Assembly (NCBI RefSeq): GCF_003651245.1
Contig: NZ_RAPE01000001.1
Location: 1,364,001-1,428,000, forward strand
DNA from: Roseovarius spongiae
GTDB taxonomy: Bacteria > Pseudomonadota > Alphaproteobacteria > Rhodobacterales > Rhodobacteraceae
Length of the DNA stretch: 64,000 bases
Reading direction: 5' to 3'
The notes beneath the pieces are model-generated. The model had not been told where the DNA came from. It saw nothing but the letters and a program-made list of their open reading frames with translations, and searched no databases. How positions within the stretch are numbered: the stretch's first letter is position 1; every line of letters begins with the position of its first letter. The position numbers were made by a program, and so were the translations under genes. This document shows positions 11,621-58,262 of the stretch, piece after piece.

Positions 11621-11622
11621 GA

Positions 11623-29103: not shown

Positions 29104-29109
29104 GAAGTT

Positions 29110-30050: not shown

Positions 30051-30134
30051 GGTGAGGCCCGCCCGCATCTTCTTCTTGCCCCGAATATCCGCACCGGAGG
30101 CGCCTTCTCCGCGCCGCGCGCGCCTGCGCCCGAG

Positions 30135-31148: not shown

Positions 31149-31152
31149 TGCG

Positions 31153-31176
31153 AAAGCCGCCCGTTCAGGCGGCTTT
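31153..31176. terminator. Bidirectional terminator between patatin and DUF502 genes
   Basis: Stem AAAGCCGCC / GGCGGCTTT with loop CGTTCA. It starts five bases after the patatin stop and overlaps the last codons and stop of the DUF502 gene on the other strand. Confidence 0.75.
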
Positions 31177-31854: not shown

Positions 31855-31937
31855 GCGTCCGTTCGTCCTGCATCGGCCCGAGCTATGTAAGCGGCTTTCC
31901 GCCTTCCGGCAATGGCGCAGATCCGGTAACAGCCCCC

Positions 31938-31966
31938 TTGCGTCCGCCGGCGCGCCCGTCTATATG
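31938..31966 (+). promoter_or_regulatory. Promoter of rpsB-tsf
   Basis: TTGCGT at 31938-31943 and TATATG at 31961-31966 with a 17-base spacer. It predicts a leader of about 113 bases before rpsB, which contains a small hairpin GAAGC/GCTTC near 32034-32047. A long leader is usual for rpsB and could serve S2 autoregulation; I cannot show a binding structure. Confidence 0.6.
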
Positions 31967-32086
31967 CGCGGCACTGAAATCCGCAGGCGCGGGCGGGTCC
32001 ATGGGGGAGACATCCCTATAGGTCCACCGGTTGAAGCATTCGCTTCTCACCCCGCGCCGAGGCGAAAACCGGAAAAGGAACAAGAC

Positions 32087-32995
32087 ATGGCTCTTCCCGA
32101 GTTCTCCATGCGCCAGCTGCTCGAGGCAGGCGTTCACTTCGGCCACCAGACGCAGCGCTGGAACCCCCGCATGGGCGAGTTCATCTACGGCGCGCGCAAC
32201 GGCATCCACATCATGGACCTCACGCAGACGGTGCCGATGCTCGACGCCGCGCTGAACGTGGTGCGCGAAACCGTGGCCAAGAACGGCCGCATCCTCTTTG
32301 TCGGCACCAAGCGGCAGGCGAGCGCGCCCATCGCCGAGGCGGCCGAGAAATGCGCGCAATACTACATGAACCACCGCTGGCTGGGCGGCACGCTCACCAA
32401 CTGGCAGACGGTGTCCAAATCGATCCACCGCCTGAAGGAGATCGACGAAACGCTGGAAGGCGGCGCTGAGGGTCTCACCAAGAAAGAGCGTCTCGGGCTC
32501 GAGCGCGACCAGGCGAAGCTGGAAGCCTCGCTGGGCGGCATCCGCGAAATGGGCGGCGTGCCCGACCTGCTCTTCGTGATCGACGTGCGCAAGGAGCAAC
32601 TGGCCGTCGCCGAGGCGAAGAAGCTGGGCATTCCGATCGTCGCGGTGGTGGACACCAACTGCTCGCCCGACGGGATCGACTACATCATCCCCGGCAACGA
32701 CGACGCGGCGCGCGCCATCGCGCTTTACTGCGACCTGGTCAGCCGCGCCGCGCTTGACGGCATGTCCGCGCAGCTCGACGCCGCCGGCGTCGATATCGGC
32801 GCAATGGAAGAAGCGCCTGTCGAGGAAGCCGCCGCACCTGAGGCCGGCGTCGAAGTGGGCGCCGTCAGCGAAGAGACCGCGCATGACGACGTCATGAGCA
32901 AGGACGCGCCGCTCGACATCGAGTCGAGCGAAGAGGTCTCGGAAATGGCGCAGCAGGCCGGCGAGGCCGGCAAGGAAGAGAAAGCCGACAGCTGA
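32087..32995 (+). CDS. rpsB: 30S ribosomal protein S2
   Basis: 302 residues. Conserved core from [20 protein letters not shown] through [44 protein letters not shown] and [14 protein letters not shown]. Beyond about residue 235 there is an unusually long acidic tail of some 60 residues rich in Glu, Ala and Val; typical S2 proteins end near 240-260. Start fixed by AAAAGGA before ATG 32087. Followed by tsf in the conserved order. Confidence 0.97.
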
Positions 32996-33072
32996 GCGCC
33001 GTCGCTTCATTCTGACACAAGGGCCCGGCGCGTCCCGCGCCGGACCGCCACGAACATTCGAGGAGAGCCGAG

Positions 33073-33945
33073 ATGGCGATTACCGCTGCAATGGTAAAGG
33101 AACTGCGCGACACCACGGGCGCGGGCATGATGGACGCCAAGAAGGCGTTGACGGAGAACGACGGCGACATGGAGGCGGCGGTCGACTGGCTGCGCACCAA
33201 GGGGCTCGCCAAGGCCGCCAAGAAATCCGGGCGCACCGCCGCCGAGGGGCTCGTCGCGGTCAAGGTCGAGGGCGGCCGCGGCGTCGCGGTCGAAATCAAC
33301 TCGGAAACCGATTTCGTCGCCAAGAACGCCGATTTCCAGGCGATGGTCGCCTCGGTCGCCGACGCGGCTGTCAAGGCCGATGATCTCGAGGCGCTGAAGG
33401 CGTCCGACCTGGGCGGCAAGACGGTGGAAGAGACGATCACCGACAAGATCGCCACCATCGGCGAAAACATGAGCCTGCGCCGCATGGTCTCGGTCAGCGG
33501 AGCCAGCGTTGCGTCCTACATCCACAACGCCGCCGCCGAAGGCATGGGCAAGATCGGCGTTCTCGTCGCGTTCAACGGCGACGAGGCGTTCGGCCGCCAG
33601 GTCGCGATGCACATCGCCGCGACCAAGCCCGCCGCGCTCAACGAGGCGGAACTCGACCCGGCCATTGTCGACAAGGAACGCCAGGTCCAGATCGACATCG
33701 CCCGCGAGAGCGGCAAGCCCGAGCAGGTGATCGAGAAGATGATCGAAGGCCGGATGAAGAAATTCATCGCCGAGGCGACCCTGATGGGTCAGGCCTTCGT
33801 CATGAATCCGGACCTCACCGTCGAGGCGGCCGCCAAGGAAGCGGGAACCGAGATCACCGGGTTCGCGCGGCTCGAGGTCGGCGAAGGCATCGAGGTCGAG
33901 AAAGAGGACTTCGCCGCCGAGGTGGCCAAGGCCGCCAAGGGCTGA
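33073..33945 (+). CDS. tsf: Elongation factor Ts
   Basis: 290 residues. The N-terminal UBA-like part contains [19 protein letters not shown]; the core contains the TDFVAKN motif that contacts EF-Tu. Guanine-nucleotide exchange factor for EF-Tu. GAGGAGA sits eight bases upstream of the start. A terminator follows at 33971-33996. Confidence 0.97.
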
Positions 33946-34313
33946 GGCCCTTCGAACCGGATCGAAAGAAACGGGGCGCTCTTTCGGGCGCCCCGTCTGC
34001 TTTTCGGCTCCGGCATGGCATGTCGGGTCCGCTCCAATTCATCCGAAATCTTCCGGATTTGCCTGACGCGACACGGCCCGTGCATCACAGGGAGAATGAA
34101 CCGCCGACAGCCGAGCCGAAAATTGGCCGGCTGCCGACGACCGGCATTGCCGTATGGGTCGCAAGAGCCCCGTAATCCCGGGGATCGCGATCCAATGTTC
34201 CCGGGCCAGAAGGGCCACCACTCACGGAACAGAAACATGATGCGCCCTTACGTTAAGTAAGGGAAGTCCGGGATTCCTTACCCTGCGGTAAAAAACGCCG
34301 CGCGGGGACGGTT
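33946..34313. other. Intergenic region between convergent tsf and luxR-type genes
   Basis: 368 bases. It contains the tsf terminator (33971-33996), a short stem CCTTAC/GTAAGG near 34250, and on the minus strand a G+C palindrome followed by six T (about 34292-34305), probably the terminator for the regulator gene. Nothing else recognisable. Confidence 0.5.
33971..33996 (+). terminator. Terminator after rpsB-tsf
   Basis: Stem ACGGGGCGC / GCGCCCCGT (33971-33979 with 33988-33996) followed by CTGCTTTT. Lies 25 bases after the tsf stop. Confidence 0.75.
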
Positions 34314-35063
34314 TCAGGAGCTGTGAATCTGGTGCTGGAACGACGCCTTGAGCACCGCCTGCGCTGTGGTCTCCACGTTGAGCGCTTCGCGCGCCAGGCG
34401 TAGGTGTTTTTCGATCGTGGCCGGGGTCAGATTGAGGATCTGGGCGATGTCCTGCACCGTCTTGCCGTCGCCGACCCAGCCCAGCACCTCGCGCTGGCGC
34501 GGGGTCAGCGTGCGGGCCGGGGCGGTGTAGGGCAGCGACAGGATGCGCAGATGGGCGACGGTGGCGATCGCCTGGATATCCGCGCCATGCTCGCGCCAAA
34601 CGGCGTCCACCTCGTCCTGCGTCTTCCCGACACGGGCCGTCAGGGCCATCGCCGCCTTGAGCCGTGGCGAGGTCGAGCGGAAACTGATCGAATACCCCGC
34701 CGTCACGCCGCGACGGGCGTTGAACTCCATCACCTTGCGCTCATCCGCCGTCAGCGTGCCGGTTTCGGCCATCTCGTGCAGCACCGACCACGAGCACGCC
34801 CCGTCATTGTCGAGCGCCCAGCGTACCATCGGCGCATGAAAGTAAAGCGCATCGCCGACGAAACGGTCGGTGTAGGCGCGGTCATGGGTGCTGAGCAGGA
34901 TGAAATCGTCCGGATCGCCCAGCGAGGTTCCTGTGCGGTAGCGAGTCGCGCCGTAGATCAGCCGGTCGAATCCGTGCCGCGCGAACCGGCGGGCGAGCAT
35001 GTCCCACAGGTTCTCGATGCTGGGCGCGTTCAGGAACGCCTGCAGGTCGTCGGTCGGGATCAT
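34314..35063 (-). CDS. LuxR-type regulator with autoinducer-binding domain (no luxI nearby)
   Basis: 249 residues. Residues 1 to about 170 match the autoinducer-binding fold; the C-terminal part is a LuxR helix-turn-helix (LTPRQREVLGWVGDGKTVQD then LNLTPATIEKHLRLAREAL). No acyl-homoserine-lactone synthase gene is in the window, so it is a LuxR solo as far as can be seen. Its start overlaps the aroQ stop (ATGA), so it is expressed from the aroQ transcript. Ligand unknown; plausible signals include acyl-homoserine lactones made elsewhere in the genome or by neighbours. Confidence 0.9.
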   Translation of the reverse strand: MIPTDDLQAFLNAPSIENLWDMLARRFARHGFDRLIYGATRYRTGTSLGDPDDFILLSTHDRAYTDRFVGDALYFHAPMVRWALDNDGACSWSVLHEMAETGTLTADERKVMEFNARRGVTAGYSISFRSTSPRLKAAMALTARVGKTQDEVDAVWREHGADIQAIATVAHLRILSLPYTAPARTLTPRQREVLGWVGDGKTVQDIAQILNLTPATIEKHLRLAREALNVETTAQAVLKASFQHQIHSS

Positions 35064-35503
35064 CCGCCAGCATCCAGATGCCCCGCCAGCGCGTCCATCG
35101 CCAGCGCATATCCCGCCGCGCCGAAACCGCAGATAACGCCAAGCGCAACCGGGGCGATATAGCTGCGATGGCGAAATTCCTCGCGTGAATGGACGTTTGA
35201 GAGGTGAAGTTCAACCACCGGAAGAGCGACGGAGCTGATCGCGTCCCGCAGCGCCACCGAGGTGTGCGTATAGGCGCCGGCGTTCAGGACGATGCCGTCA
35301 TGCGCGCCGCGCGCAGCGTGGATGTGATCGACGAGCGCGCCTTCAAAGTTGCTCTGCTCGAACGCCATGCCGATCCCCATCGCCTCGGCCTTGCGCGCGC
35401 ATTGCGCCTCGATATCTGCCAGCGTGGTGTGGCCGTAGATTTCGGGCTGGCGCGCGCCAAGCAGGTTCAGGTTGGGGCCGTTGAGGATCAGTATAGATGT
35501 CAT
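35060..35503 (-). CDS. aroQ: Type II 3-dehydroquinate dehydratase
   Basis: 147 residues, standard length. ILILNGPNLNLLGARQPEIYG holds the catalytic arginine and Tyr23; ELHLSNVHSREEFRHRSYI holds the active-site histidine and substrate-binding residues. Shikimate pathway step 3. RBS AAAGG lies nine bases upstream of ATG 35503. The last bases overlap the start of a LuxR-type regulator, an unusual partner for a housekeeping enzyme. Divergent from matB. Confidence 0.96.
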   Translation of the reverse strand: MTSILILNGPNLNLLGARQPEIYGHTTLADIEAQCARKAEAMGIGMAFEQSNFEGALVDHIHAARGAHDGIVLNAGAYTHTSVALRDAISSVALPVVELHLSNVHSREEFRHRSYIAPVALGVICGFGAAGYALAMDALAGHLDAGG

Positions 35504-35638
35504 ATGTCTGCCTTTCGGCGGAAAATTAACCCGCGACGCGGGCCCTGTCGAGAACGCTTTGCGCAACGCGTCAATTGCCTGTCGTCGCACCGCGTGCGAA
35601 ACCACCGGCAGGATCGACTGAAGACGAAAGGCGCGACG

Positions 35639-37162
35639 ATGTCCAACCCTCTTTACGACCGGTTCTTCGGCTGTCACGCGGGCCGCGACGCGCCCTTTCT
35701 GATCCTGCCGGGGGGCGGCGCGATCAGCTACGCGGAGTTCCTGGCCCACGCGGCGCGGATCGCGCATGTGCTGGTCGGGGCCGGGCTGGCGCCCGGCGAC
35801 CGCCTTGCCGCGCAGGTGGAGAAATCGCCCGACGCGCTCGCGCTCTACGCCGCCTGCGTGCAGGCCGGCGTCGTGTTTCTGCCGCTCAACACCGCCTACA
35901 CGGCGCCCGAGGCGCGTTACTTCATCGAGGACAGCGGCGCGCGATTGCTGGTCTGCGATCCGCGCGCCGAGGCGGAGTTGCGCGAGGTGGCCGAAGGGCA
36001 GGGCGCGACGCTGATGACTCTCGGCTCGGACGGCTCGGGAAGCCTGGCGGATGCGGCGGCGCAGGCGCCCAACGTGTTCGTCACCGCGCCGCGGGACGAG
36101 GACGATCTTGCCGCGCTGCTCTATACCTCGGGGACGACCGGGCGCTCCAAGGGCGCGATGCTGAGCCAGCGCAACCTGATGTCGAACGCGGAAACGCTGA
36201 CCGGTCTCTGGCGCTTCACCGCCCGCGACGTGCTGCTGCACGCGCTGCCGATCTTTCACACGCACGGGCTTTTCGTGGCGACCAACGTGATGCTGCGCGC
36301 GGGCGGCGCGATGATCTTCCTGCCGAAGTTCGACGCGGGCGAACTGATCCGCCTGATGCCGGGGGCGACCGCGTTGATGGGTGTGCCGACCTTCTACACC
36401 CGCCTTCTGGATGAGGTGAAGTTCACCCGCGATATTGCCGAAAACATGCGGCTTTTCATCTCCGGCTCCGCGCCGCTGCTGGCCGAAACGCATCAACGGT
36501 TCGAGGAGCGCACCGGACACCGCATCCTCGAACGCTACGGCATGACCGAAACCAACATGAACACATCGAACCCTTACGGGGGCGAGCGGCGCGCGGGCAC
36601 CGTGGGTTTCCCGCTGCCGGACGTTGAGCTGAAGATCACGGACCCCGAGACCGGCGCCGAGATAGCGAAGGGCGACACCGGCATCATCGAGGTGCGCGGG
36701 CCCAACGTCTTCCAAGGCTACTGGCAGATGCCCGAGAAGACGGCGGATGAACTGCGCGAGGACGGGTTCTTCATCACCGGCGACCTCGGGCGCATCGACG
36801 GCGACGGCTACGTTCATATCGTAGGGCGGGCGAAAGACCTCATCATATCGGGTGGTTACAACATATACCCGAAGGAGATCGAACAGCTGCTCGACGATCA
36901 GCCCGGCGTGCTGGAAAGCGCCGTAATCGGCGTGCCGCATCCCGATTTCGGGGAAACTGTCCTCGCGATCATCGTCCCGCAGGCGGACGGGGCGCCGGAC
37001 GAGGCGGCGCTGATGCAGGCGGTCGCGGCGCGGCTCGCGCGTTTCAAGCATCCCCGCCGGATCATCCCGCTCACCGCGCTGCCGCGCAACACGATGGGCA
37101 AGGTGCAGAAAAACGTGCTGCGCGAGCGCTACAAGGATGTTTTCGCCCGCAGTGCGGAATGA
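35639..37162 (+). CDS. matB: Malonyl-CoA synthetase
   Basis: 507 residues, adenylate-forming enzyme. LLYTSGTTGRSKGAMLSQRN is the phosphate loop; LPIFHTHGLFVATNV and LERYGMTETNMNTSNP match MatB/ACSF3 enzymes; GRAKDLIISGGYNIYPKEIE is the hinge, and the catalytic lysine is in LPRNTMGKVQKN. Activates malonate to malonyl-CoA with ATP. No malonyl-CoA decarboxylase is adjacent. The five-gene Liv-type transporter follows on the same strand after about 150 bases. Confidence 0.92.
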   Translation: MSNPLYDRFFGCHAGRDAPFLILPGGGAISYAEFLAHAARIAHVLVGAGLAPGDRLAAQVEKSPDALALYAACVQAGVVFLPLNTAYTAPEARYFIEDSGARLLVCDPRAEAELREVAEGQGATLMTLGSDGSGSLADAAAQAPNVFVTAPRDEDDLAALLYTSGTTGRSKGAMLSQRNLMSNAETLTGLWRFTARDVLLHALPIFHTHGLFVATNVMLRAGGAMIFLPKFDAGELIRLMPGATALMGVPTFYTRLLDEVKFTRDIAENMRLFISGSAPLLAETHQRFEERTGHRILERYGMTETNMNTSNPYGGERRAGTVGFPLPDVELKITDPETGAEIAKGDTGIIEVRGPNVFQGYWQMPEKTADELREDGFFITGDLGRIDGDGYVHIVGRAKDLIISGGYNIYPKEIEQLLDDQPGVLESAVIGVPHPDFGETVLAIIVPQADGAPDEAALMQAVAARLARFKHPRRIIPLTALPRNTMGKVQKNVLRERYKDVFARSAE

Positions 37163-37316
37163 TGCGCCCGTGGCGGACGCGTTTCGCGGATAATTTGCGC
37201 CTGCACTCTTCCCTTGGCGCGGAAATTCATCTTTGTTGTGTTGAGCGCGGGCCGCACGCGGCCCGCAGGCGTCCGCGAGAGACGCGCGAGGATTGTTCAA
37301 ACGGGGAGACGGAAGA

Positions 37317-38465
37317 ATGAAATCCACACTGACCGCAGCCGCGCTGGCGGCGGCGCTGGCAATGGGCGCCACGCAGGCCAGCGCCGAGATGAGCGACATC
37401 AAGGTCGGCATGATCACCACGCTTTCGGGCGGCGGCGCGAGCCTCGGGATCGACATCCGCGACGGCTTCATGCTTGCCGTGAAGCAGGCCGGAGCGGGCC
37501 ATGTCGACGTGGTCATCGAAGACGACCAGCGCAAGCCCGAAATCGCCGTGCAACTGGCCGACAAGATGGTGCAATCCGACAAGGTAGACCTGCTGACCGG
37601 CATCATCTGGTCCAACCTGGCGATGGCCGTGGTCCCAAGCGTGACCGCGCAGGGCAAATTCTACCTGTCGCCCAATGCCGGGCCTTCGGCGCTGGCGGGC
37701 AAGGGCTGCAACAAGAACTACTTCAACGTCGCCTGGCAAAACGACAACATGCACGAGGCGGCGGGCGCCTACGCCAATGAGCAGGGCTACAAGAACGTGT
37801 TCATCTTCGCGCCCAACTACCCCGCCGGACAGGACGCGCTGACCGGGTTCAAACGCTTCTACGAGGGCGAACTGGCCGCCGAGATCTACACCACGCTCGG
37901 CCAGCAGGACTATGCCAGCGAGATCGCCCAGATCCGCGCCAGCGACGCGGATGGCGTGTTCTTCCTGCTGCCCGGCGGCATGGGGATTTCATTCCTCAAG
38001 CAATACGCCGACAGCGGGCTAGACCTGCCGCTGATGGGCGCGGCGTTCAGCTTTGACCAGGGCATCCTGCAAGCGGTTGGCGACGCGGCGATGGGCGTGC
38101 GCAATACGAGCCAGTGGAACAAGGACATCGACAACCCCGCCAACAAGAAATTCGTCGAGACCTTCCAGGCCGAATACGATCGCCTGCCGTCGCTCTTCGC
38201 CAGCCAGGGCTATGACACGGCGATGCTGATGATCTCGGCCATGAAGAAGGCCGACGTGAAGGATGCCGACGCCTTCCGCGCCGCACTCGAAGAGGCTGAC
38301 TTCGAGAGCACGCGCGGCAAGTTCTCTTTCGATACCAACCACCACCCGATCCAGGACATCTATGTCCGCGAGGTCATCAAGGAGGGCGACGTCTACACCA
38401 ACAAGCTGATCGGCACGGTGCTGACGGATCACTCCAACGCCTATGTCGACGAGTGCAAGATGTAA
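37317..38465 (+). CDS. Liv-type ABC transporter substrate-binding protein
   Basis: 382 residues. Signal peptide STLTAAALAAALAMGATQAS with cleavage near ASA, then a type I periplasmic-binding fold (KVGMITTLSGGGASLGIDIR, YLSPNAGPSALAGKGCNKNY). Ligands of this family range from branched-chain amino acids to aromatic acids and urea. The GSPSALAG-like pocket region differs from classical LivJ, so substrate is open. GGGGAGACGGAAG precedes ATG 37317. Confidence 0.9.
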   Translation: MKSTLTAAALAAALAMGATQASAEMSDIKVGMITTLSGGGASLGIDIRDGFMLAVKQAGAGHVDVVIEDDQRKPEIAVQLADKMVQSDKVDLLTGIIWSNLAMAVVPSVTAQGKFYLSPNAGPSALAGKGCNKNYFNVAWQNDNMHEAAGAYANEQGYKNVFIFAPNYPAGQDALTGFKRFYEGELAAEIYTTLGQQDYASEIAQIRASDADGVFFLLPGGMGISFLKQYADSGLDLPLMGAAFSFDQGILQAVGDAAMGVRNTSQWNKDIDNPANKKFVETFQAEYDRLPSLFASQGYDTAMLMISAMKKADVKDADAFRAALEEADFESTRGKFSFDTNHHPIQDIYVREVIKEGDVYTNKLIGTVLTDHSNAYVDECKM

Positions 38466-38507
38466 GCTTTGCGCGGCCGGGGCTTCCGTTCCGGCCTTCC
38501 AACCTTC

Positions 38508-38534
38508 CGGGCGGTCCGCATGACGGGCCGCCCG
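38508..38534 (+). terminator. Intra-operon hairpin between binding protein and LivH genes
   Basis: An 11-base-pair stem (CGGGCGGTCCG with CGGGCCGCCCG, one G-U pair) and loop CATGA, followed by TCGTTC. Placed between binding-protein and permease genes just like the one at 9922-9952, it probably gives differential expression. Confidence 0.55.
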
Positions 38535-38553
38535 TCGTTCAACAAGGCGTCGC

Positions 38554-39474
38554 ATGTCTTTGATGTTGCTGATCGAACAGGTGCTGAACGGGCTTCAACT
38601 CGGGGTGATGCTGTTCCTGATGGCGTCGGGGCTCACCCTGGTCTTCGGGGTGATGGGGCTGATCAACCTCGCGCATGGCTCGCTTTACATGGTGGGGGCG
38701 TTTGCGGCCGCCTGGGTGGCGGCGGCGACGGGGTCTTTCCTGCTCGCGCTGGCGGCGGCGCTCGCCGCGGCGGCGGCGGCGGGCGCCATCGTCGAGGTGG
38801 TGGTGATCCGCAGGCTCTATGCGCGCGATCACCTGGACCAGGTGCTAGCGACCTTCGCACTGATCCTGGTCTTCTCGGAGGGAACGCGCTGGATCTTCGG
38901 CTCCTTCCCGCTCTACCTCAACGTGCCGGACTACCTGGCCGGGCCGGTGACCCTGCCGGGGGGGATCGAATACCCGCTCTACCGGCTGTCGCTGATCGGG
39001 GTCGGCGGGCTCATCGCCTGCGCGCTCTACCTGCTGATCGCGCGCACCCGGCTGGGCGTTCAGATCCGCGCAGGCGAAGCGGACCGCGAGATGATCGCGG
39101 CGCTTGGCGTAGATATATCAAAGCTTTACACGGTGGTCTTCGCGCTTGGCGCGGCGCTTGCCGGGCTGGCCGGGGCGCTGGTGGGCACCATCCAGTCGGT
39201 GCAGGTCGGCATGGGTGAGCCGGTCCTGATCCTCGCCTTCGTGGTGATCGTGATCGGCGGCATCGGTTCGATCAAGGGCGCCTTCGTGGGCGCGCTGCTG
39301 GTCGGGTTGACCGATACGCTCGGCGCCTTCCTGCTGCCGCAGCTCTTCGGCGCGTTCATGGATGTCTCTAGCGCGGCGGCGGTCGGCTCGGCGCTGGCGT
39401 CGATGCTGATCTACCTGCTGATGGCCGCGGTCCTCTTCCTGCGGCCCCGCGGGCTTTTCGGAGATACGGCATGA
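38554..39474 (+). CDS. livH: Branched-chain amino acid-type ABC permease LivH
   Basis: 306 residues, about eight membrane segments. LNGLQLGVMLFLMASGLTLV and FGVMGLINLAHGSLYMVGAF are the classic LivH opening; the EAA-like loop lies around IRAGEADREMIAALGVD. It overlaps the next permease gene by four bases (ATGA). Confidence 0.93.
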   Translation: MSLMLLIEQVLNGLQLGVMLFLMASGLTLVFGVMGLINLAHGSLYMVGAFAAAWVAAATGSFLLALAAALAAAAAAGAIVEVVVIRRLYARDHLDQVLATFALILVFSEGTRWIFGSFPLYLNVPDYLAGPVTLPGGIEYPLYRLSLIGVGGLIACALYLLIARTRLGVQIRAGEADREMIAALGVDISKLYTVVFALGAALAGLAGALVGTIQSVQVGMGEPVLILAFVVIVIGGIGSIKGAFVGALLVGLTDTLGAFLLPQLFGAFMDVSSAAAVGSALASMLIYLLMAAVLFLRPRGLFGDTA

Positions 39475-40454
39475 TGCGCGAGCGATACATCAACGCGGCG
39501 CTGCTTGGCGGGCTCCTGCTGGTCGTCTTCTGGGCCTATACCGGGGATGAGCCGTTCACCATCACGCTGGCCACCCGCGTGGCGATCCTGGCGCTGGCGG
39601 GCGTCGGCCTCAACATCGCGCTGGGGCAGGGGGGGCTGGTCAGTCTAGGGCATGCGGTATTCTTTGGCATCGGCGGCTACGCGATGGGCATCCTCGCCAG
39701 CCACGCGCAGAGCTACCAGCCCCTGACGCTCGGGCCGCTGGTGATCGAGGGGACAAAATCCATGCCGCTGATCTGGCTCACGGCGATGGTGGCCTCCGGA
39801 ATCGCCGCGCTGCTGATCGGGCTGGTGTCACTCCGCACGGGCGGGGTCTATTTCATCATGATCACGCTCGCCTTCGGGCAGATGTTTTACTACTTCGCGA
39901 TCTCCTGGCCCGCCTATGGCGGCGAGGACGGGCTGAGCATCTATGTGCGCAACGGCTTTCCGGGTCTGAACACGCTCGATCCGATCCAGTTCTTCGGCCT
40001 GTGTTTCGCGCTGCTGCTCGCCGCGCTGGCCTTCCACGCTGCGTTCAAGCACGCGCCCTTCGGCCTTGCGCTTAACGCCGCGCGCCAGTCGCCGGACCGG
40101 GCGCAAGCGGTGGGACTCGATCCGACGCGGCTGCGGCTGATCGCTTTCGTCATTTCGGGCGTCATCACCGGGCTGGCCGGCGCGCTCTTTGCCGATCTCA
40201 ACCGTTTCGTCAGCCCGACGATGTTCAGCTGGCAGCTTTCGGGCGAGCTTTTGATCTTCATCATCCTCGGCGGCACCGGGCGGCTTTGCGGCCCGGTCGC
40301 GGGCGCGGCGATGTTCATCGCGCTCGAGCACTGGCTGGGCGGGCTCAGCGAGTATTGGCATATCTATCTTGGCGCGCTGCTTCTGGGGGTCGTCCTCTTC
40401 GCGCCCGGCGGACTGATCGGGATCGCGACCCGGCGCGAGGCGGCGCATGACTGA
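39471..40454 (+). CDS. livM: Branched-chain amino acid-type ABC permease LivM
   Basis: 327 residues, hydrophobic, with NIALGQGGLVSLGHAVFFGI typical of LivM and a late LRLIAFVISGVITGLAGALF segment. Forms the channel with LivH. Starts within the stop of livH and overlaps the start of livG by eight bases. Confidence 0.93.
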   Translation: MMRERYINAALLGGLLLVVFWAYTGDEPFTITLATRVAILALAGVGLNIALGQGGLVSLGHAVFFGIGGYAMGILASHAQSYQPLTLGPLVIEGTKSMPLIWLTAMVASGIAALLIGLVSLRTGGVYFIMITLAFGQMFYYFAISWPAYGGEDGLSIYVRNGFPGLNTLDPIQFFGLCFALLLAALAFHAAFKHAPFGLALNAARQSPDRAQAVGLDPTRLRLIAFVISGVITGLAGALFADLNRFVSPTMFSWQLSGELLIFIILGGTGRLCGPVAGAAMFIALEHWLGGLSEYWHIYLGALLLGVVLFAPGGLIGIATRREAAHD

Positions 40455-41196
40455 GCCGGTGATCGAGACCCGCGCGCTTTGCAAGCGCTTCGGCGCGCTC
40501 GAGGCGAGCCGGGATATCTCGCTTGACCTGCGGGTCGGGGAAATTCATGCGGTAATCGGGCCGAATGGTGCGGGAAAATCGACACTTATCAGCCAGATAT
40601 GCGGCGGTCTTCAACCCGATAGCGGCGAAGTTCGGCTGATGGGCCGCGACGTCACCGGCTGGGACGTCGCTGCGCGGGCGCGCGCCGGCATCGGTCGGAC
40701 CTTCCAGGTTTCCGCGCTGGCGATGGAGGACACCGTGCTACAGAACGCGCTGCTCGGCGCGTTCGGGGCGTCGGGCAGGCGGCTCGGGCTGTTTCGCCCG
40801 GCGCTCAGGTATCGCGATCTGAGAAGCCGTGCGCTGGCCGCGCTCGACCGGGTCGGGCTGGCCGGGCAGGCGGCGGCCCCGGCCGCCGAGCTTTCGCATG
40901 GCGAACGCCGTCGGCTTGAGATCGCCATCGCGCTCACGCTTGCCCCGCGCGCCTTTGTCCTGGATGAACCGATGGCCGGGCTGGGAAGCGAGGGAACGAA
41001 GGAAATCACCAACCTTCTGAACGAGTTACGCAGCGAAGCTCCGATCCTCCTGGTCGAACACGACATGGACGCGGTCTTTGCGCTCGCGGACCGGATCAGC
41101 GTTCTGGTCTACGGCCAGGTGATCGCGACCGGCGCGGTCGAGGAAATCCGCGCCAATGCCGAGGTCCGCGCCGCATATCTGGGGGACAGCGCATGA
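40447..41196 (+). CDS. livG: Liv-type ABC transporter ATP-binding protein LivG
   Basis: 249 residues. Walker A GPNGAGKST, signature LSHGERRRLEIA, Walker B FVLDEPMAGLG and switch histidine in LVEHDM. The LSHGE form of the signature is normal for LivG. Stop overlaps the livF start by four bases. Confidence 0.94.
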   Translation: MTEPVIETRALCKRFGALEASRDISLDLRVGEIHAVIGPNGAGKSTLISQICGGLQPDSGEVRLMGRDVTGWDVAARARAGIGRTFQVSALAMEDTVLQNALLGAFGASGRRLGLFRPALRYRDLRSRALAALDRVGLAGQAAAPAAELSHGERRRLEIAIALTLAPRAFVLDEPMAGLGSEGTKEITNLLNELRSEAPILLVEHDMDAVFALADRISVLVYGQVIATGAVEEIRANAEVRAAYLGDSA

Positions 41197-41879
41197 GCCT
41201 GCTGGAATTGCGCAACGTGAGCGCGTCTTACGGGCCGGCGCAGGCGTTGTTCGATGTCTCGCTCGATATCGCCGAAGGCGAGGTTCTCGCGCTCATGGGA
41301 CGCAACGGGATGGGGAAATCCACCACGGTCAAGGCGATCTGCCGGATGCTGCCGACGGGCGGCGTTCTGCGCTTTGCCGGGCATGACCTCGCACCGCTGC
41401 CAAGCCATCGCGCCGCGCGGCTGGGGATCGGCCTCGTTCCCGAGGGCCGCCGCTGCTTTGCGCCGCTGACGGTCGCCGAGAACCTCACCGCCGCCGCGCG
41501 CTCGGGGGATTGGACCATGGCGCGGGTTTGCGAGCTTTTCCCGCGACTTGCAGAGCGAAGCGGTCAGGTTGCATCGACCTTGTCCGGCGGCGAACAGCAG
41601 ATGCTCGCCATCGGGCGGGCGCTGATGACGAACCCGCGCTTGCTGATCCTCGACGAGGCGACCGAGGGCCTCGCGCCACTGATCCGCGCCGAGATCTGGT
41701 CCGCGCTCACGCGGCTGCGGGATGGCTCGGACATGGCGATCCTCGTGATCGACAAATCCCTCGCGGAGCTGCGCCGCGTCGCCGACCGCGCGGTGATCCT
41801 GGAGCGCGGGCGCACGGTCTGGACCGGAACCTTCGAGACGCTCGATGCGGCGACGACCGACCGGTTTCTTGGCGTCTGA
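41193..41879 (+). CDS. livF: Liv-type ABC transporter ATP-binding protein LivF
   Basis: 228 residues. Walker A GRNGMGKST, signature LSGGEQQMLAIGRAL, Walker B LLILDEATEGLAP. Family-typical GIGLVPEGRRCFAPLTVAEN is present. Normally the last helix carries a switch histidine in VEQ/VEH; here the stretch is ILVIDKSLAELR, so the ATPase switch residue is replaced, an oddity worth noting. Last gene of the operon; dif-like site lies 57 bases downstream. Confidence 0.92.
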   Translation: MSLLELRNVSASYGPAQALFDVSLDIAEGEVLALMGRNGMGKSTTVKAICRMLPTGGVLRFAGHDLAPLPSHRAARLGIGLVPEGRRCFAPLTVAENLTAAARSGDWTMARVCELFPRLAERSGQVASTLSGGEQQMLAIGRALMTNPRLLILDEATEGLAPLIRAEIWSALTRLRDGSDMAILVIDKSLAELRRVADRAVILERGRTVWTGTFETLDAATTDRFLGV

Positions 41880-41935: not shown

Positions 41936-41963
41936 TATTTACATAATATAGATTATGCGAAAT
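41936..41963 (-). other. dif: dif-like chromosome dimer resolution site (XerC/XerD target)
   Basis: Read on the minus strand: left arm ATTTCGCATAA, centre TCTATA, right arm TTATGTAAATA. Against E. coli dif (left GGTGCGCATAA, centre TGTATA, right TTATGTTAAAT) the matches are 8/11, 5/6 and 8/11, together 21 of 28. The inner CGCATAA and TTATGT blocks that the two recombinases contact are unchanged. It lies in non-coding DNA between the convergent livF and fabI genes, and KOPS-like octamers change direction here. No recombinase gene is adjacent, as expected for the host site. A phage-borne dif-like site is the main alternative, but no phage genes surround it. Confidence 0.85.
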
Positions 41964-42068: not shown

Positions 42069-42869
42069 TCAGAGGTTCCCGGCCTGTGGCATGCCAAGCA
42101 CGTGGTAGCCGCCATCGACGCGGATCACCTCGCCCGTGGTGAAGACGCCGGCGTCGGAGCAGAGATAGACCGCCGTGCCGCCCACCGCCTCGAGCGTGGC
42201 GTTGGCGCGCAGCGGTGCGTTCTCGGCCGTGTGCTTGTAGGTCTTGCGCGCGCCTCCGATGGCCGCGCCGGCCAGCGTCTTCATCGGCCCCGGTGAGAGC
42301 GCGTTGACGCGGATGCCTTCGGGACCCAGATCGTTCGCGAGATAGCGCGTGGTCGACTCCAGCGCCGCCTTGGCGACGCCCATCACGTTGTAGTTCGGCA
42401 CAACCCGGTTGCTGCCCTGATAGGTCAGCGTGAGCAGCGTGCCGCCGTGCTCTTGCATGAGCGGATGCGCGCGGCGCGCGACATCGATGAAGGAATAGCA
42501 CGAGATTTCCAGCGAGTGCTTGAAATTGGCGCGGCTGGTGTTGAGAAACCGCCCCGTCAGTTCCGACTTGTCCGAATAGGCGATCGCGTGGACGAGAAAA
42601 TCGATCGTCGGCCAGCGCTGTCCCAAAGCGCCGAAGCCCGCGTCAAGCGACGCGTCGTCGGTCACGTCCATATCCACGAGGAAGTCCGAGCCGACCGACT
42701 CCGCCAGCGGCGCCACGCGTCTGCCAAAGGCGTCGCCCTGGTAGCTGAACGCCAGCTCCGCGCCCGCCTCATGCATCGCCCGCGCGATCCCCCAGGCGAT
42801 GGAGCGGTCGTTGGCGACCCCCATGATCAGCCCGCGCCGCCCCTGCATCGGTTTGCTCATCGCGTTCAC
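42069..42869 (-). CDS. fabI: Enoyl-[acyl-carrier-protein] reductase (NADH)
   Basis: 266 residues. The FabI-type nucleotide motif [20 protein letters not shown] is at the start; the catalytic YxxMxxxK is in [23 protein letters not shown] and the late [18 protein letters not shown] are typical. Last reductive step of fatty acid elongation. Its ATG overlaps the fabB stop (ATGA), so the two genes are translationally coupled. Confidence 0.96.
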
Positions 42870-45649: not shown

Positions 45650-46159
45650 TCAACTTTCGCTCAGCGCCACCTTCATGTCCTTGACCTGGTAGATCACGTC
45701 GCCATCGGCCTCGACGATGCCGTCCGCCACGCCCATGGTCAGCCGCCGCGTCTGCACCGCCTTGGTGAAATCCACCTTGTAGGTCAGCATCTTGCGGTCG
45801 GGGCGCACCATGCCGGTCAGCTTCACCTCGCCCACGCCGAGCGCATAGCCCCTGCCCTGCCAGCCGCGCCAGCCGAGGTTGAATCCGGTGAGCTGCCACA
45901 GCCCGTCAAGCCCGAGACAGCCCGGCATGATCGGGTTGCCCGGGAAGTGACATTCGAAGAACCACAGGTCCGGCGTGATGTCGAATTCCGCCACCACGTG
46001 CCCCTTGCCATGCAGCCCGCCATCGCCCGAGATGTCGGTGATGCGGTCCATCATCAGCATCGGAGGTTCGGGCAACTGGGCGTTGCCGGGGCCGAAAAGT
46101 TCGCCCCGCGCGCATTTCAGCAGGTCGTCTTTTCCGAAACTGCTCGGATAATCGGCCAT
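45650..46159 (-). CDS. fabA: 3-hydroxydecanoyl-ACP dehydratase/isomerase
   Basis: 169 residues, standard length. The active-site His71 is in [14 protein letters not shown] and Asp85 in LGLDGLWQL, matching E. coli H70 and D84. Introduces the cis double bond of unsaturated fatty acids. Divergent from irr, as usual in this group. Immediately followed by the restriction endonuclease gene rather than fabB. Confidence 0.97.
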
Positions 46160-46345
46160 GTAAGGGGTTTCCTTGTCCTGTCGTCGCGTGTTTCCCGCTT
46201 TCCTCTAGCACCCGCGCGCGCGCCGGCGCAAGCCTGCAACACAAGGGCGCAGCACACCGCCACTGCGCCGACATGCCGTGAATTTCATTTGAAATCCCGC
46301 CTCGGCGTCCTTTATATTGCACATGAGAACAGCTTGCAGGTTGCG

Positions 46346-46765
46346 ATGAACTCAAAGGCGATCACGCGCGGAACGGAATGGCTCGCGGAGGGCGGATTGC
46401 GCCCCACCCGCCAGCGCGTCGCGTTGGCGGCGCTGCTGATCGGCGACGGCCATCACCGGCACGTCACCGCCGAGAGCCTCTTCGCAGACGTCTGCAAGGG
46501 CGGCGAGCGGGTGTCGCTCGCGACCGTCTACAACACGCTGCGCGCCTTTTGCGACGCCGGGCTGATGCAGGAGGTCATGGTCGACGGCGCGCGCAGCTAT
46601 TTCGACACCAACACCCACGACCACCCGCATTTCTTCTGGGAGGACGAGGAACGCATTAGCGACGCGCCCGCCGACCAGCTCGAGATCCGGCGCATCCCCG
46701 ACGCCCCTCCGGGCGCCGAGATCGCCTCGGTCGACGTGGTGATCCGCCTGCGCAGCCGCCGCTGA
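46346..46765 (+). CDS. irr: Iron response regulator Irr (Fur family)
   Basis: 139 residues. Winged helix LRPTRQRVALAALLIGDG, HRHVTAESLFADV and SLATVYNTLRAFCDAGLM are Fur-family; the metal/heme region is NTHDHPHFFWEDEE, as in Irr rather than Fur. Irr senses heme and controls iron genes in alphaproteobacteria. Divergent from fabA in the conserved arrangement. It is followed by a palindromic repeat element. Confidence 0.92.
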   Translation: MNSKAITRGTEWLAEGGLRPTRQRVALAALLIGDGHHRHVTAESLFADVCKGGERVSLATVYNTLRAFCDAGLMQEVMVDGARSYFDTNTHDHPHFFWEDEERISDAPADQLEIRRIPDAPPGAEIASVDVVIRLRSRR

Positions 46766-46787
46766 CGGGCCTGCCCGGCGGGCGGAA

Positions 46788-46837
46788 CAATTTTCTTCCG
46801 TGAAGAAAATTGCGAAGGCTTTTGGAACAAAAGCCTT
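46788..46837. repeat. Two-hairpin palindromic repeat, copy 2
   Basis: Hairpin with arms CAATTTTCTTC and GAAGAAAATTG (46788-46812, loop CGT), then hairpin with arms AAGGCTTTTG and CAAAAGCCTT (46815-46837, loop GAA). Compared with copy 1 at 22242 the hairpins occur in opposite order, that is, inverted orientation, and each differs by one base pair exchanged on both arms (G-C for T-A, and A-T for G-C). Confidence 0.8.
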
Positions 46838-46914
46838 GTCCGCGGTCGCGCCCTTGAACCTTGCCTGGGCAAGCGTTTCAACGGACCTCAGATATCAGCA
46901 AAGGAGCCCCGACA

Positions 46915-47904
46915 ATGCGCGCCATCAGCTATGACAGGTTCGGCCCCGCCGCCGACGTCCTGGAACTGGTCGATCTCGACACGCCCGAGCCCGGCCCAGG
47001 CGAGGTGCGCGTGCGGCTCGCCTTCTCGGGGGTGAACCCGTCCGACGCCAAGGCGCGCGCGGGATCGCGCCCCGGCGTGACCAAGCCCGCCTTCCCCCGC
47101 GTCGTGCCGCATTCAGACGGCTCGGGGCGCATCGACGCGGTCGGCGACGGCGTCGACGCCGCCCGCCTCGATGAGCGGGTCTGGATCTGGAACGGGCAAT
47201 GGCAGCGCCCCTTCGGCACGGCCGCCGAATTCATCTGCCTGCCCGCCGACCAGGCCGTCCCCCTGCCCGACGGCGTCTCGCTCGAGGTCGGCGCGACGCT
47301 GGGCATCCCCGGTCTCACGGCGGCGCATACGGTGTTCGGCGGCGGCGACGTCGCCGGGCGCACGCTGCTGATCAGCGGCGGCGCGGGCGCGGTCGGGCAT
47401 ATCGCGGTGCAGCTTGCCAAATGGGGCGGCGCACAGGTGATCGCGACGGCGCGCGGCACGGGCATGCGCCGCGCCGCCGAGGCGGGCGCGCATCATGTGC
47501 TGGATTACACGCATCCCCACCTTGCCGCGCAGGTGATGGCGGCGACGGACGGCGCCGGCGTCGATCGCGCGGTCGAGGTGGAATTCGGGCCGAACGCCGC
47601 CATGCTGGCCGAGGTGATGCGCCCCGGCTGCACGATCTGCGCCTATGGATCGGGCGGGGACATGACGCCCACCCTGCCCTTCGGCCCCTATCTGTTCAAG
47701 GCGCTGACGCTCGATATCGTGTTGATCTACATTCTGGGCGAGGCAGAGCGCAGGGTGGCCATCGGGCGGCTGCACGACGCGCTTGCTGCGGGTGCGCTGG
47801 ACCCGGCGATCGCGGAGATATATCCGCTGTCGCAGGCCGCCGAAGCGCAGGACGCGGTGATGACGCCCGGCCGCGCGGGGGCGGTCCTGCTCGACCTGCG
47901 GTAG
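46915..47904 (+). CDS. Zinc-independent NADPH:quinone reductase-like oxidoreductase (MDR family)
   Basis: About 329 residues. GroES-like N-terminus (MRAISYDRFGPAADVLEL, VNPSDAKARAG), Rossmann segment LISGGAGAVGHIAVQLAKW and no zinc-binding cysteine set, as in quinone oxidoreductases. Reduces quinones or unsaturated carbonyl compounds with NADPH; substrate unknown. AAAGGAG nine bases before ATG 46915 fixes the start. Convergent with the FKBP gene; they share a hairpin. Confidence 0.9.
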   Translation: MRAISYDRFGPAADVLELVDLDTPEPGPGEVRVRLAFSGVNPSDAKARAGSRPGVTKPAFPRVVPHSDGSGRIDAVGDGVDAARLDERVWIWNGQWQRPFGTAAEFICLPADQAVPLPDGVSLEVGATLGIPGLTAAHTVFGGGDVAGRTLLISGGAGAVGHIAVQLAKWGGAQVIATARGTGMRRAAEAGAHHVLDYTHPHLAAQVMAATDGAGVDRAVEVEFGPNAAMLAEVMRPGCTICAYGSGGDMTPTLPFGPYLFKALTLDIVLIYILGEAERRVAIGRLHDALAAGALDPAIAEIYPLSQAAEAQDAVMTPGRAGAVLLDLR

Positions 47905-47925
47905 GGTGGGTTTGAAACCCACCCT
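47903..47925. terminator. Bidirectional hairpin between convergent genes
   Basis: Stem AGGGTGGGTTT / AAACCCACCCT, perfect over 11 base pairs around a single central base. It begins inside the stop codon of the quinone-reductase-like gene and lies 13 bases beyond the FKBP stop. No T-run, so it is either a bidirectional terminator or a dispersed palindromic unit. Confidence 0.6.
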
Positions 47926-47937
47926 GCAGGTTGCGGC

Positions 47938-48366
47938 TCAGTTGACCGCGACCACTTCGATGTCGAAGGTCAGGTCTTCGCCCGCCAGCGCGTGGTTCGC
48001 GTCCAGCGTCACGTGGCTGTCGGTCACTTCCTTCACCGTGACCGGCATCGCCTGCCCGTCAGGCGTCTGCACCTGAAGCTGCGTGCCCGGGTCGAGCGGG
48101 ATGTCGTCGGGGATTCCTTCGCGCGGGACCTGTTGCAGCGCGTTCGGGTCCGGCTGGCCATAGGCCTCGTCCGCGGGGACCTCGACAACCTTCTTGTCGC
48201 CGACGCTCATGCCCGGCAGCGCGTTGTCGAGGCCGGGGATGATCTGGCCCGACCCGACGGTGAACTTCAGCGGCTCGCGGCCCTCGCTGCTGTCGAAGAC
48301 CTGGCCGTCCTGAAGCGTTCCCTTGTAATGAATCTGTACCGTATCGCCCGATTTGATCTCGGTCAT
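47938..48366 (-). CDS. FKBP-type peptidyl-prolyl isomerase (SlyD-like)
   Basis: About 142 residues. SGDTVQIHYKGTLQDGQVFD is the FKBP core; an inserted flap (EAYGQPDPNALQQVP) matches the SlyD chaperone domain. No metal-binding His/Cys tail. Cytoplasmic folding helper. ATG 48366 is preceded by TTGGAGAG; the longer frame is unsupported. Confidence 0.92.
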   Translation of the reverse strand: MTEIKSGDTVQIHYKGTLQDGQVFDSSEGREPLKFTVGSGQIIPGLDNALPGMSVGDKKVVEVPADEAYGQPDPNALQQVPREGIPDDIPLDPGTQLQVQTPDGQAMPVTVKEVTDSHVTLDANHALAGEDLTFDIEVVAVN

Positions 48367-48595
48367 GAACTCTCCAATCCTTGGGGGTTGTTGGCCCCGG
48401 CGCAATTGATCCGGGACGCGGGTGAATGGGCAAGGCCGCGTGCGGCGCGGGTGCTTGCATCGGATTCGGACGCCACGCTAACGCGGCTGGGCGAGCATTG
48501 CAAACGGACGGCGGGATGGGGCGCGCAAGGGGCGGATTTGGCCTTTCCCCTACGCGTTCGGCGTGCCAATCTGCGTTGACCGCAACGGAGCCTTC

Positions 48596-49282
48596 ATGCC
48601 GATCACGACCTGCATCTTCGACGCCTACGGCACGCTCTTCGACGTGGCCGCCGCCGCGCGCGTCGCCGCGTCGGAACCCGGGCGCGAGGATTTCGCGCGC
48701 CACTGGCCGCGCATCGCCGAGAACTGGCGGCTCAAGCAGCTTCAATACACCTGGCTGCGCGCGGTCATGGGGCGGCACGCGGATTTCTGGCAGGTGACGC
48801 AGGACGGGCTGGACTGGGCGCTCGAGGCCGAAGGGCTGGACGGTGATGCGCAATTGCGCGAACGCCTGCTGGCGCTCTACCGCGAACTCGAATGTTTCGC
48901 CGAAGTCCTCGAAATGCTGCGCGCGCTGAAGAAGGTTGGCCACGCGACCGCCATCCTGTCGAACGGCACGCCCGGCATGCTCGACGCCGCGATCCGCTCT
49001 GCGGGGATCGCCGATCTGCTCGACGACGTGCTCTCGGTCGAATCGGTGGGCGTCTTCAAGCCGGCGGCGGCGGTCTATGACATGGTGGGCGCCCGTTTCG
49101 GATGCGCGCGCGAGGAGGTGCTTTTCGTCTCTTCGAATGGCTGGGACGTGGGCGCCGCGGCAAGCTACGGCTTTGCGACCGCCTGGGTCAATCGCGCGGG
49201 CGATCCGGTGGACCGCCTGCCCGCGCGCCCCGATCGCGTGCTGAAAAACCTGCGCGGCATCCCCGCGCTGGCCGGCGCCTGA
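48596..49282 (+). CDS. Haloacid dehalogenase, type II
   Basis: About 228 residues, HAD superfamily. Nucleophile aspartate in IFDAYGTLFDV, ILSNGTPGML, lysine in VGVFKPAAAVYD and FVSSNGWDVGAAASYGF match (S)-2-haloacid dehalogenases. Hydrolyses 2-haloacids to hydroxy acids. ATG 48596 has CGGAG seven bases upstream. Its stop overlaps the start of the next gene (TGATG), first of a three-gene operon. Confidence 0.9.
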   Translation: MPITTCIFDAYGTLFDVAAAARVAASEPGREDFARHWPRIAENWRLKQLQYTWLRAVMGRHADFWQVTQDGLDWALEAEGLDGDAQLRERLLALYRELECFAEVLEMLRALKKVGHATAILSNGTPGMLDAAIRSAGIADLLDDVLSVESVGVFKPAAAVYDMVGARFGCAREEVLFVSSNGWDVGAAASYGFATAWVNRAGDPVDRLPARPDRVLKNLRGIPALAGA

Positions 49283-50118
49283 TGGGCAAGTTCCAGAGCG
49301 CGGACGGGCTCGGCCTGCATTACGAAGATGGCGGCGACGGCCCGCCGGTGCTCTGCCTCTCGGGGCTCACGCGCAACAGCAGCGATTTTCGCTATCTCGC
49401 GCCGTTCCTGCCCGAATACCGGCTGATCCGCCCCGACTATCGCGGGCGCGGCCTGTCGGATCATGCGCCCGACGCCCAGAGCTACACCATCGCGCAGGAG
49501 GCGGCGGACGCGATTGCGCTTCTGGACCATCTCGGGCTGGACAAGGTCACGGTGCTCGGCACCTCGCGCGGGGGGCTGATCGCGATGCTGCTGGCGCATA
49601 CGCATCCCGAACGGTTGAACGGAATCATCCTCAACGACATCGGCCCCGAGGTAACGCAGACCGGCATCGCGCGGATCATGGACTATGTCGGGCGCCCCCC
49701 GACATTCGCCGATTACGCCGAGGCCGCGACCGCGCTCAAGGAGATGAACGAACCCGCCTTTCCGGGCGTCACCCACAACCGCTGGCGCGTGCAGGCGGAG
49801 ATGATGTGGTGCGCGAAGCCCGGCGGCGGGCTTGGCCTGCGCTATGATCCGCGCCTGCGCGACGCGCTTGAGGGCCAGGCGGGCGCCGGTCCCGCCCCGG
49901 ACCTCTGGGCGTTGTTCGACGCGGCCGCCCGCCTGCCGCTCACCGCGCTGCGCGGGGCGAATTCCGACCTGTTGAGCGACGAGACCTTCGCGAAGATGCG
50001 GGATCGCGCGCCGGAAATGCGCGCGGTTATCGTGCCGGACCGGGGTCATGTGCCTTTCCTGGACGAGGCCGAGGCGCTCAAGGCGATCCGCGCCCATCTG
50101 GAGGACCACGGCAAATGA
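49282..50118 (+). CDS. Alpha/beta hydrolase
   Basis: 278 residues. Oxyanion strand VLCLSGLTRNSSDF, nucleophile elbow LGTSRGGL and final histidine in PDRGHVPFLDE. Esterase or related hydrolase; substrate unknown. Overlaps both neighbours by a few bases, so it is translated together with the dehalogenase and the dehydratase. Confidence 0.9.
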   Translation: MGKFQSADGLGLHYEDGGDGPPVLCLSGLTRNSSDFRYLAPFLPEYRLIRPDYRGRGLSDHAPDAQSYTIAQEAADAIALLDHLGLDKVTVLGTSRGGLIAMLLAHTHPERLNGIILNDIGPEVTQTGIARIMDYVGRPPTFADYAEAATALKEMNEPAFPGVTHNRWRVQAEMMWCAKPGGGLGLRYDPRLRDALEGQAGAGPAPDLWALFDAAARLPLTALRGANSDLLSDETFAKMRDRAPEMRAVIVPDRGHVPFLDEAEALKAIRAHLEDHGK

Positions 50119-51098
50119 ATATCGACATGATCCGCGCCGCCGCTCAGCGGCTTGAGGGGCACGCGCGGCGCACGCCGTTGCTCGGCTCGCCCTTCCTCGA
50201 CGAACTGGCCGGGCGGCGCCTGCTGGTCAAACCCGAGTGCCTGCAACATACCGGCAGCTTCAAGTATCGCGGCGGGCGCGCGGCGCTCTCCGCGCTGGAC
50301 CCGGACGTGCGCAAGCGCGGCGTGCTGGCCTATTCCAGCGGCAACCACGCGCAGGGCGTCGCGCTCGCCGCGCGGGAGTTCGGCGCGCCCGCGGTCATCA
50401 TCATGCCCGCGGACGCGCCCCGCTCCAAGATCGACAACACCCGGGGGCTCGGGGCCGAGGTGGTGCTTTACGACCGCGCAGGCGGCGAAAGCCGCGAGGC
50501 GGTGGGCGAGCGGATCGAGGCGGAACGCCGCCTCACCCTCATCAAGCCCTATGACGAACCCGAGGTGATCGCCGGCCAGGGCACGACCGGGCTCGAGATC
50601 GCGGCGCAGGCGGCCGAAATGGGCATTTCGCAGGCGACGATGCTGACCTGCTGCGGCGGCGGCGGGCTGACCTCGGGCATCGCGCTCGCGCTCGAGGCGG
50701 AGGCGCCGGGGATGCAGGTCCGCCCGTGCGAGCCCGAAGGCTTCGACGACACCAAGCGTTCGCTCGCCAGCGGGCATGTCCAGAGCAACGCGACGCAGTC
50801 GGGCAATATCTGCGACGCGATCCTGACGCCCGCGCCGGGGCGGCTCACCTTTCCGATCATGCAGCGGCTCTGCGGCCCCGGCCTCGCCGTGAGCGAGGAC
50901 GAGGCGCTCGACGCGATGGCGCTGGCCTGGCAGCGGCTGCGCATCGTGGCCGAACCCGGCGGCGCCGTGGCGCTGGCCGCCGCGCTCATCCGCAAGGACG
51001 AGATCGAGGGCGATACGGTAATCTGCACCGTCTCGGGCGGCAACGTGGACCCGGGCGTCTTCCGCCGCGCGCTCGACCGGCTGGATGGCGGCGCATGA
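50115..51098 (+). CDS. Threonine/serine dehydratase family protein
   Basis: 327 residues, fold II PLP enzyme. The PLP lysine is in TGSFKYRGGRAAL, the phosphate-binding glycines in CCGGGGLTSG, and SSGNHAQGVALAA binds substrate. Likely threonine ammonia-lyase or serine racemase/dehydratase; it lacks the C-terminal ACT domain of biosynthetic IlvA. Start overlaps the hydrolase stop (ATGA). Confidence 0.88.
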   Translation: MNIDMIRAAAQRLEGHARRTPLLGSPFLDELAGRRLLVKPECLQHTGSFKYRGGRAALSALDPDVRKRGVLAYSSGNHAQGVALAAREFGAPAVIIMPADAPRSKIDNTRGLGAEVVLYDRAGGESREAVGERIEAERRLTLIKPYDEPEVIAGQGTTGLEIAAQAAEMGISQATMLTCCGGGGLTSGIALALEAEAPGMQVRPCEPEGFDDTKRSLASGHVQSNATQSGNICDAILTPAPGRLTFPIMQRLCGPGLAVSEDEALDAMALAWQRLRIVAEPGGAVALAAALIRKDEIEGDTVICTVSGGNVDPGVFRRALDRLDGGA

Positions 51099-51272
51099 TT
51101 TCGCCGCCTCAATCACTGGCGTGAACGTGACCAACCCCGGTCACGATTATCGCCGCTTCCAGAGCTGCATGCGCGCTGAATCAGCCTGAAAGCGACGAAA
51201 CGGGTCGCGCCCGGGCCTGCTTTTCCCGCCCCGCTGGCCAGACTGGATGCGCGATCCCGGAGGGCGCAGGTC

Positions 51273-52196: not shown

Positions 52197-52270
52197 TCGC
52201 GGCGCGCATTCCTGCTTGAACGGGCGGGCGAATCCGGGTCACTCTGCGGCGAACACCGTGGGAGACGCCG

Positions 52271-53365: not shown

Positions 53366-53425
53366 TCCGCCGCCCCTGCCCCGCGACGGCGCCTGCCCCG
53401 CGGGCGATCAAACAGAGGGGCCGCG

Positions 53426-54094: not shown

Positions 54095-54097
54095 GCG

Positions 54098-58257: not shown

Positions 58258-58262
58258 GCGGC

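Follow-up and report, generated by a model that had tools for sequence, protein, structure and literature searches.

Context of a predicted chromosomal dif site in Roseovarius spongiae and of its counterparts in related genomes

The 28-mer on the minus strand at positions 41936 to 41963 of the DNA analyzed here is almost certainly the chromosomal dif of Roseovarius spongiae, that is, the site of chromosome dimer resolution. It belongs to an already known kind, being a textbook site and an ordinary chromosomal dif found in one more species. The window, by which we mean the whole stretch of 64,000 nucleotides that was analyzed, corresponds to positions 1364001 to 1428000 of contig C1 in a draft genome of 16 contigs (4,053,554 bp, 98.84% complete). 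The sequence of the site, its single copy in the draft, the polarity of the motifs around it, the candidate recombination proteins, and a like site with like polarity in relatives were all observed in the genomes themselves.

RESULTS AND DISCUSSION

Sequence and layout of the site

Read directly, the minus-strand 28-mer is ATTTCGCATAA TCTATA TTATGTAAATA, which gives the XerC arm, the center, and the XerD arm in this order. Its parts are as follows.

41936..41963, minus strand: dif site of 28 bp, with XerC arm, 6-bp center, and XerD arm; 21/28 identity to E. coli dif; single copy in the draft
41953..41963, minus strand: predicted XerC-binding arm ATTTCGCATAA, from the sequence and the 11-6-11 layout as in PMC2731167
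41947..41952, minus strand: central hexamer TCTATA, from the sequence; a TCAGTA site is present in 55/76 matching genomes of the genus
41936..41946, minus strand: predicted XerD-binding arm TTATGTAAATA, from the sequence

The site thus has the two inverted 11-bp Xer arms, the 6-bp center, and the conserved inner cores of a chromosomal dif. Of its 28 positions, 21 are identical to E. coli dif and 7 differ, whereas the top score among 200 Markov-shuffled windows searched on both strands (400 maxima) was 19. A preliminary description of this DNA had claimed the same 21/28 agreement, with the cores CGCATAA and TTATGT unchanged. Both claims are borne out, the first against a shuffled maximum that stays below the observed score, and the second by direct reading of the sequence, in which the two cores are intact.

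The 28-mer and E. coli dif have in common their length of 28 bp, the 11-6-11 layout, the cores CGCATAA and TTATGT, an A+T-rich composition, an intergenic location, and a position at the reversal of GGGNAGGG polarity. They differ in the center, which is TCTATA here and TGTATA in E. coli, and also in the outer arms. GGGNAGGG is KOPS, the motif that orients FtsK (PMC13342612). The predicted dif of chromosome 1 of Rhodobacter sphaeroides, presumably a member of the same order as this genome, is intergenic and lies 1.8 kb from the skew maximum; its center, TCTGTA, is one base off the TCTATA found here, whereas its XerC core is CGGATAA and its outer arms are unlike those of the 28-mer (PMC2731167).

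Copy number and flanking genes

With up to three mismatches allowed, the 28-mer has one occurrence in the whole 4.05-Mb draft, as would be expected of one copy per chromosome, the gaps between the 16 contigs lying outside this search. The preliminary description had proposed this genome-wide search as a check, and a single copy is what it returned. A looser core pattern found dif at zero mismatches, nothing at one or two, and eight places at three, one of which is dif itself on the opposite strand. The reversed core pattern, used as a control, gave 11 places at three mismatches, which puts the eight at chance level. The window holds five other two-core matches with three mismatches each, one of them again dif on the opposite strand, and, within 10 kb of dif, this genome showed no second dif-like site. 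A dif-like place with three mismatches on contig C3 (10512-10533) was set aside, as mechanical ORFs overlap it and C3 carries three GGGNAGGG motifs in all. The contigs that bear RepC (C13, C14, and C16) have no dif core match within three mismatches. Genes for tyrosine recombinases are located close to repC on C14 and C16, possibly as resolution systems of their own.

The site is located in a 189-bp gap (41880-42068) between two convergent genes.

41193..41879, plus strand: ABC-transporter ATPase gene (LivF/UrtE-like), XerD-side flank; best NCBIfam matches UrtE and LivF, below cut-offs
42069..42869, minus strand: enoyl-ACP reductase gene fabI, XerC-side flank; best NCBIfam matches are FabI models, below cut-offs

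The location in a noncoding gap between convergent livF and fabI, as first described, therefore stands, with the sub-cut-off matches listed above for the two names. The ATPase gene is the last of a five-gene ABC-transporter set (37293-41879), which sits between dif and aroQ here and in the relatives G125 and G126. On the XerC side, fabI is followed by a gene for a beta-ketoacyl-ACP synthase and by fabA. The gene aroQ, for a type II 3-dehydroquinate dehydratase, lies 6.5 kb from dif on the XerD side. The chromosomal dif of the Roseovarius relatives shares its inner cores and motif polarity with the R. spongiae site, and aroQ is likewise on the XerD side in 18 of the 21; it was not found in the 20-kb dif-centered loci of G051, G066, and G128. 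In none of the 21 relatives was fabI found within 10 kb of the site. Elsewhere in the window, a tRNA-Ser (GCT) gene stands beside a broken integrase gene (4300-5107), and the G+C content of the stretch from about 1 to 12 kb is below that of the rest; this stretch is likely the remnant of a tRNA-integrated island.

Polarity of the FtsK-orienting motifs

The motifs on the two sides of dif are oriented as follows.

4298..39631, plus strand: left span, 12/13 GGGNAGGG motifs on the plus strand; the motif nearest dif is at 39624
45850..60937, minus strand: right span, 8/9 GGGNAGGG motifs on the minus strand; the motif nearest dif is at 45850

Counted over the window plus a further 2.5 kb, 12 of 13 motifs point at dif from the left and 8 of 9 from the right, a strand bias with a one-sided Fisher probability of about 2e-4 (worked by hand). 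The polarity reverses at dif, the switch falling between 39624 and 45850, within an interval of 6.2 kb that includes dif. Further left on C1, the sum of 20 stretches of 20 kb is 72 motifs on the plus strand versus 11 on the minus strand.

The comparison set comprised 20 relatives with longer contigs, G066, and the window, each represented by 20 kb centered on the presumed chromosomal dif and oriented from the XerC to the XerD arm. Within 10 kb of dif in these 22 genomes, own included, the motifs pointing at dif number 107/113 on the XerC side and 99/105 on the XerD side. For the window and 20 of the 21 relatives, most motifs on each side of dif are aimed at it; the exception is G034, where the XerD-side motifs are split 3 versus 3. 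The same polarity was of no help for ordering contigs C9 to C12, since over 18 stretches it is uniform on part of C9 only and mixed or weak elsewhere.

Terminus and replicon assignment

The GC skew left of dif is weak, being positive in 15 of 20 stretches of C1, and to the right, where only 24.6 kb remain on C1, it is near zero. The cumulative skew of the window reaches its maximum at 59709 (692, versus 651 at dif). Because C1 ends so soon after dif, the skew of the window is taken as uninformative on the site. Two relatives have dif near the skew extremum. In G066 (a contig of 4,101,874 bp with dnaA at 331), the cumulative maximum lies 914 bp from dif, as computed over 220 kb around dif. In G126, the sampled skew changes from positive values at 330-350 kb to negative ones at 385-405 kb, with dif at 370.6 kb; of 20 stretches of its contig C2 (3.86 Mb), 3/3 up to 350 kb are positive, 8/8 between 385 kb and 1.77 Mb are negative, and 9/9 from 1.95 Mb onward are positive again (weakest value, 0.004).

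On the same contig (L194-L213), the skew switch opposite dif falls between 1.77 and 1.95 Mb and dnaA is at 2.71 Mb, so that the origin of G126 seems not to adjoin dnaA. The use of dnaA as an origin marker was dropped because this switch lies away from the gene. As to the contigs themselves, dif is on a contig with full-length dnaA in 16 of 21 relatives, those outside the count being G024, G034, G040, G122, and G128, the last a single contig.

The preliminary description had concluded that the window spans a replication terminus. This conclusion is supported by the single copy in the draft, the GGGNAGGG reversal between 39624 and 45850, and the ordinary flanking genes, and it receives further support from the relatives, in the dnaA-bearing contigs (16/21), the polarity on both sides (20/21), and the change of skew sign in G126. 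It has been noted that FtsK converges at dif and that this point does not in every case coincide exactly with the end of replication (PMC13342612). In this draft dnaA is on C12 and dif is on C1 (1.43 Mb). RepC initiators, the only family searched, are encoded on C13, C14, and C16 and not on C1; as far as RepC goes, the contig of the site lacks the plasmid-type initiator expected of a secondary replicon with a pdif-like site. The site most likely belongs to the main chromosome rather than to a chromid.

Xer and FtsK proteins

Candidates for XerC, XerD, and the FtsK gamma domain are encoded by the host, the Xer proteins scoring below the equivalog cut-offs. The recombinase on C1 has XerC as its top match (306.2 bits; equivalog cut-off, 335.15). 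The recombinase on C9 has as its top match the general tyrosine-recombinase family PRK00283 (338 bits, above the cut-off of 279), followed by XerD (317.2 bits; equivalog cut-off, 329.6). The FtsK gamma domain, encoded on C10, is above its cut-off.

By analogy with the work on E. coli and Vibrio, from which we infer that dif is bound, that FtsK activates the reaction, and in which order the strands are exchanged, recombination between sister chromosomes would give rise to a chromosome dimer. The septum-bound translocase FtsK, steered by the oriented GGGNAGGG, would then pump DNA from both sides to dif, where its gamma domain would activate XerD. Strand exchange by XerD and XerC at the edges of TCTATA would turn the dimer into two monomers.

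Mobile elements in and beside dif

In G125, an insert of 9.4 kb is located at the core of dif (L168, G125:C1:460738-480737, at about 10.0-19.4 kb of the locus); the near-identical G126, with 98.9% identity around dif, has an empty site. One junction of the insert reads CGCATAATCAGTATTAGGTATAA and the other TCGCGTAATCAGTATTATGTAAA, which indicates that the TCAGTA center is kept at both. Among the genes of the insert are one for a coat protein (P2_N and P2_C domains), which was found in 1 of 84 genomes of the genus, and one for an ATPase whose matches are to PHROG packaging and, just below the cut-off, to the HerA domain. The insert resembles the Jorvik-type PM2-like phages; for Jorvik itself, no integrase was predicted and the attachment sites resemble dif (PMC10589892). 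Judged by its sequence, the insert of G125 is a PM2/Jorvik-like prophage in the core of a chromosomal dif, and its natural integration there would be an indirect sign that such sites recombine.

An element of another kind is suggested by nine draft contigs from relatives, which break off close to a dif-like site, seven on the XerC side and two on the XerD side.

L167, about 8.5-9.98 kb, and L115, about 10.03-11.5 kb: insertion-sequence-like end at dif or a dif-like site
L036, L050, L166, L174, L236, L239, L241, L244-L247, L252, and L253: further loci with the end at dif or a dif-like site

The end sequence is common to G026:C45, G045:C8, and G063:C245. In the loci compared and in a scan of the genus, it lies next to a dif-like site at 15 places, spread over 12 genomes; one of these 15 sites has three mismatches. 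Its last bases, TACA, stand 9 to 11 bp before CGCATAA or a variant of it, which corresponds to 5 to 7 bp from the 11-bp arm. In the genus scan, 11 of 12 matches to the end adjoin a dif-like site and the twelfth (G026:C9) is at a contig end; a weaker copy at position 8819 of L177 is without a dif beside it. In G062 and G066, the end is adjoined by open frames of 448 and 463 amino acids, which have helix-turn-helix domains and no Pfam transposase match. In size, side, and spacing, the end and its frames are like the dif-targeting ISAjo2-type elements of Acinetobacter, where the distance to the XerC arm is 5 bp (PMC10132070). A relationship of the dif-adjacent end to the ISAjo2 type may be taken as a lead. 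The titles and abstract openings of the literature surveyed named no such dif-adjacent element in this group.

Alternative readings of the site

Since elements do occur at dif in this genus, as the PM2-like prophage of G125 illustrates, the 28-mer might be a dif mimic, namely the attachment site (intact or remnant) of a phage or integrative element. This is very unlikely. The pair of attL and attR sites that an integrated element would leave is not seen, there being no second dif-like site within 10 kb; the neighboring genes are for fatty-acid synthesis and a transporter, the two inner cores are undamaged, the polarity reversal is centered on the site, and the draft genome would be left without any other dif candidate. 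Still less probability attaches to the site being an imperfect palindrome that acts as a transcription terminator, with an incidental likeness to dif. The 28-mer is indeed palindromic and lies between convergent genes, but its stem, read by eye, is A+T-rich and lacks a G+C-rich hairpin, and a terminator would leave the 21/28 match, the single copy, and the motif reversal unexplained.

A true dif could also belong to a chromid or large plasmid instead of the main chromosome, as the separation of dnaA (C12) from C1 in this draft and the dif-like sites on other contigs of relatives would allow. Against this reading, which is extremely improbable, stand the size of C1 and the XerC-like gene that it carries, the confinement of the RepC initiators to C13, C14, and C16, and the XerD-side aroQ, which recurs in 18/21 relatives, most often on the dnaA-bearing contig. 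Moreover, no other candidate would be left for the chromosome.

The central hexamer across the genus

When 120 relatives were searched with the full 28-mer, three genomes matched, own included; this was too strict, and the core pattern was used instead. Of the 84 genomes in the genus, counting this one, 76 matched the core pattern with up to two mismatches and 8 had no match. Among the 76 (135 sites, from a list copied by hand), the TCTATA center occurs in the R. spongiae genome only, whereas 55 have a TCAGTA-centered site. Several core matches were found in 30 genomes, with 89 sites. A center is repeated within one genome twice, versus 7.7 times after shuffling (P 0.0016), in counts that include chance matches and contig fragments. 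Nonrepeating centers were dropped as evidence, because the same outcome would follow if each genome had inherited one chromosomal TCAGTA. Other contigs of relatives bear dif-like sites with different central hexamers (L174-L191). Around 18 selected sites of this type, the motifs are aimed at the site in 46/48 cases on the XerC side and in 12/15 on the XerD side; such motif polarity on large secondary replicons has already been published (PMC13342612).

The TCTATA-type pattern was found in 48 viral stretches and the TCAGTA-type pattern in 16; some of all these may be chance matches. Xer strand exchange needs matching centers, and an altered center would therefore change the set of compatible phages and replicons. 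It is conceivable, though doubtful, that this lineage changed its dif core from the genus-typical TCAGTA to TCTATA and in so doing altered which XerCD-exploiting phages and replicons are compatible with it, in which case the center may evolve as a compatibility code. The idea that a changed center would mean total escape from phages is weakened by the viral stretches with the TCTATA-type pattern; given such sites in viral contigs, a change of center would shift compatibility rather than abolish it.

Significance

The dif site is a landmark on the terminus side of the chromosome that helps to order contigs and to define the two replichores. The comparison within the genus brings together a dif that is kept, other contigs with sites of other centers, and two kinds of mobile elements in or beside dif, and it thereby makes questions on the compatibility of the dif core testable.
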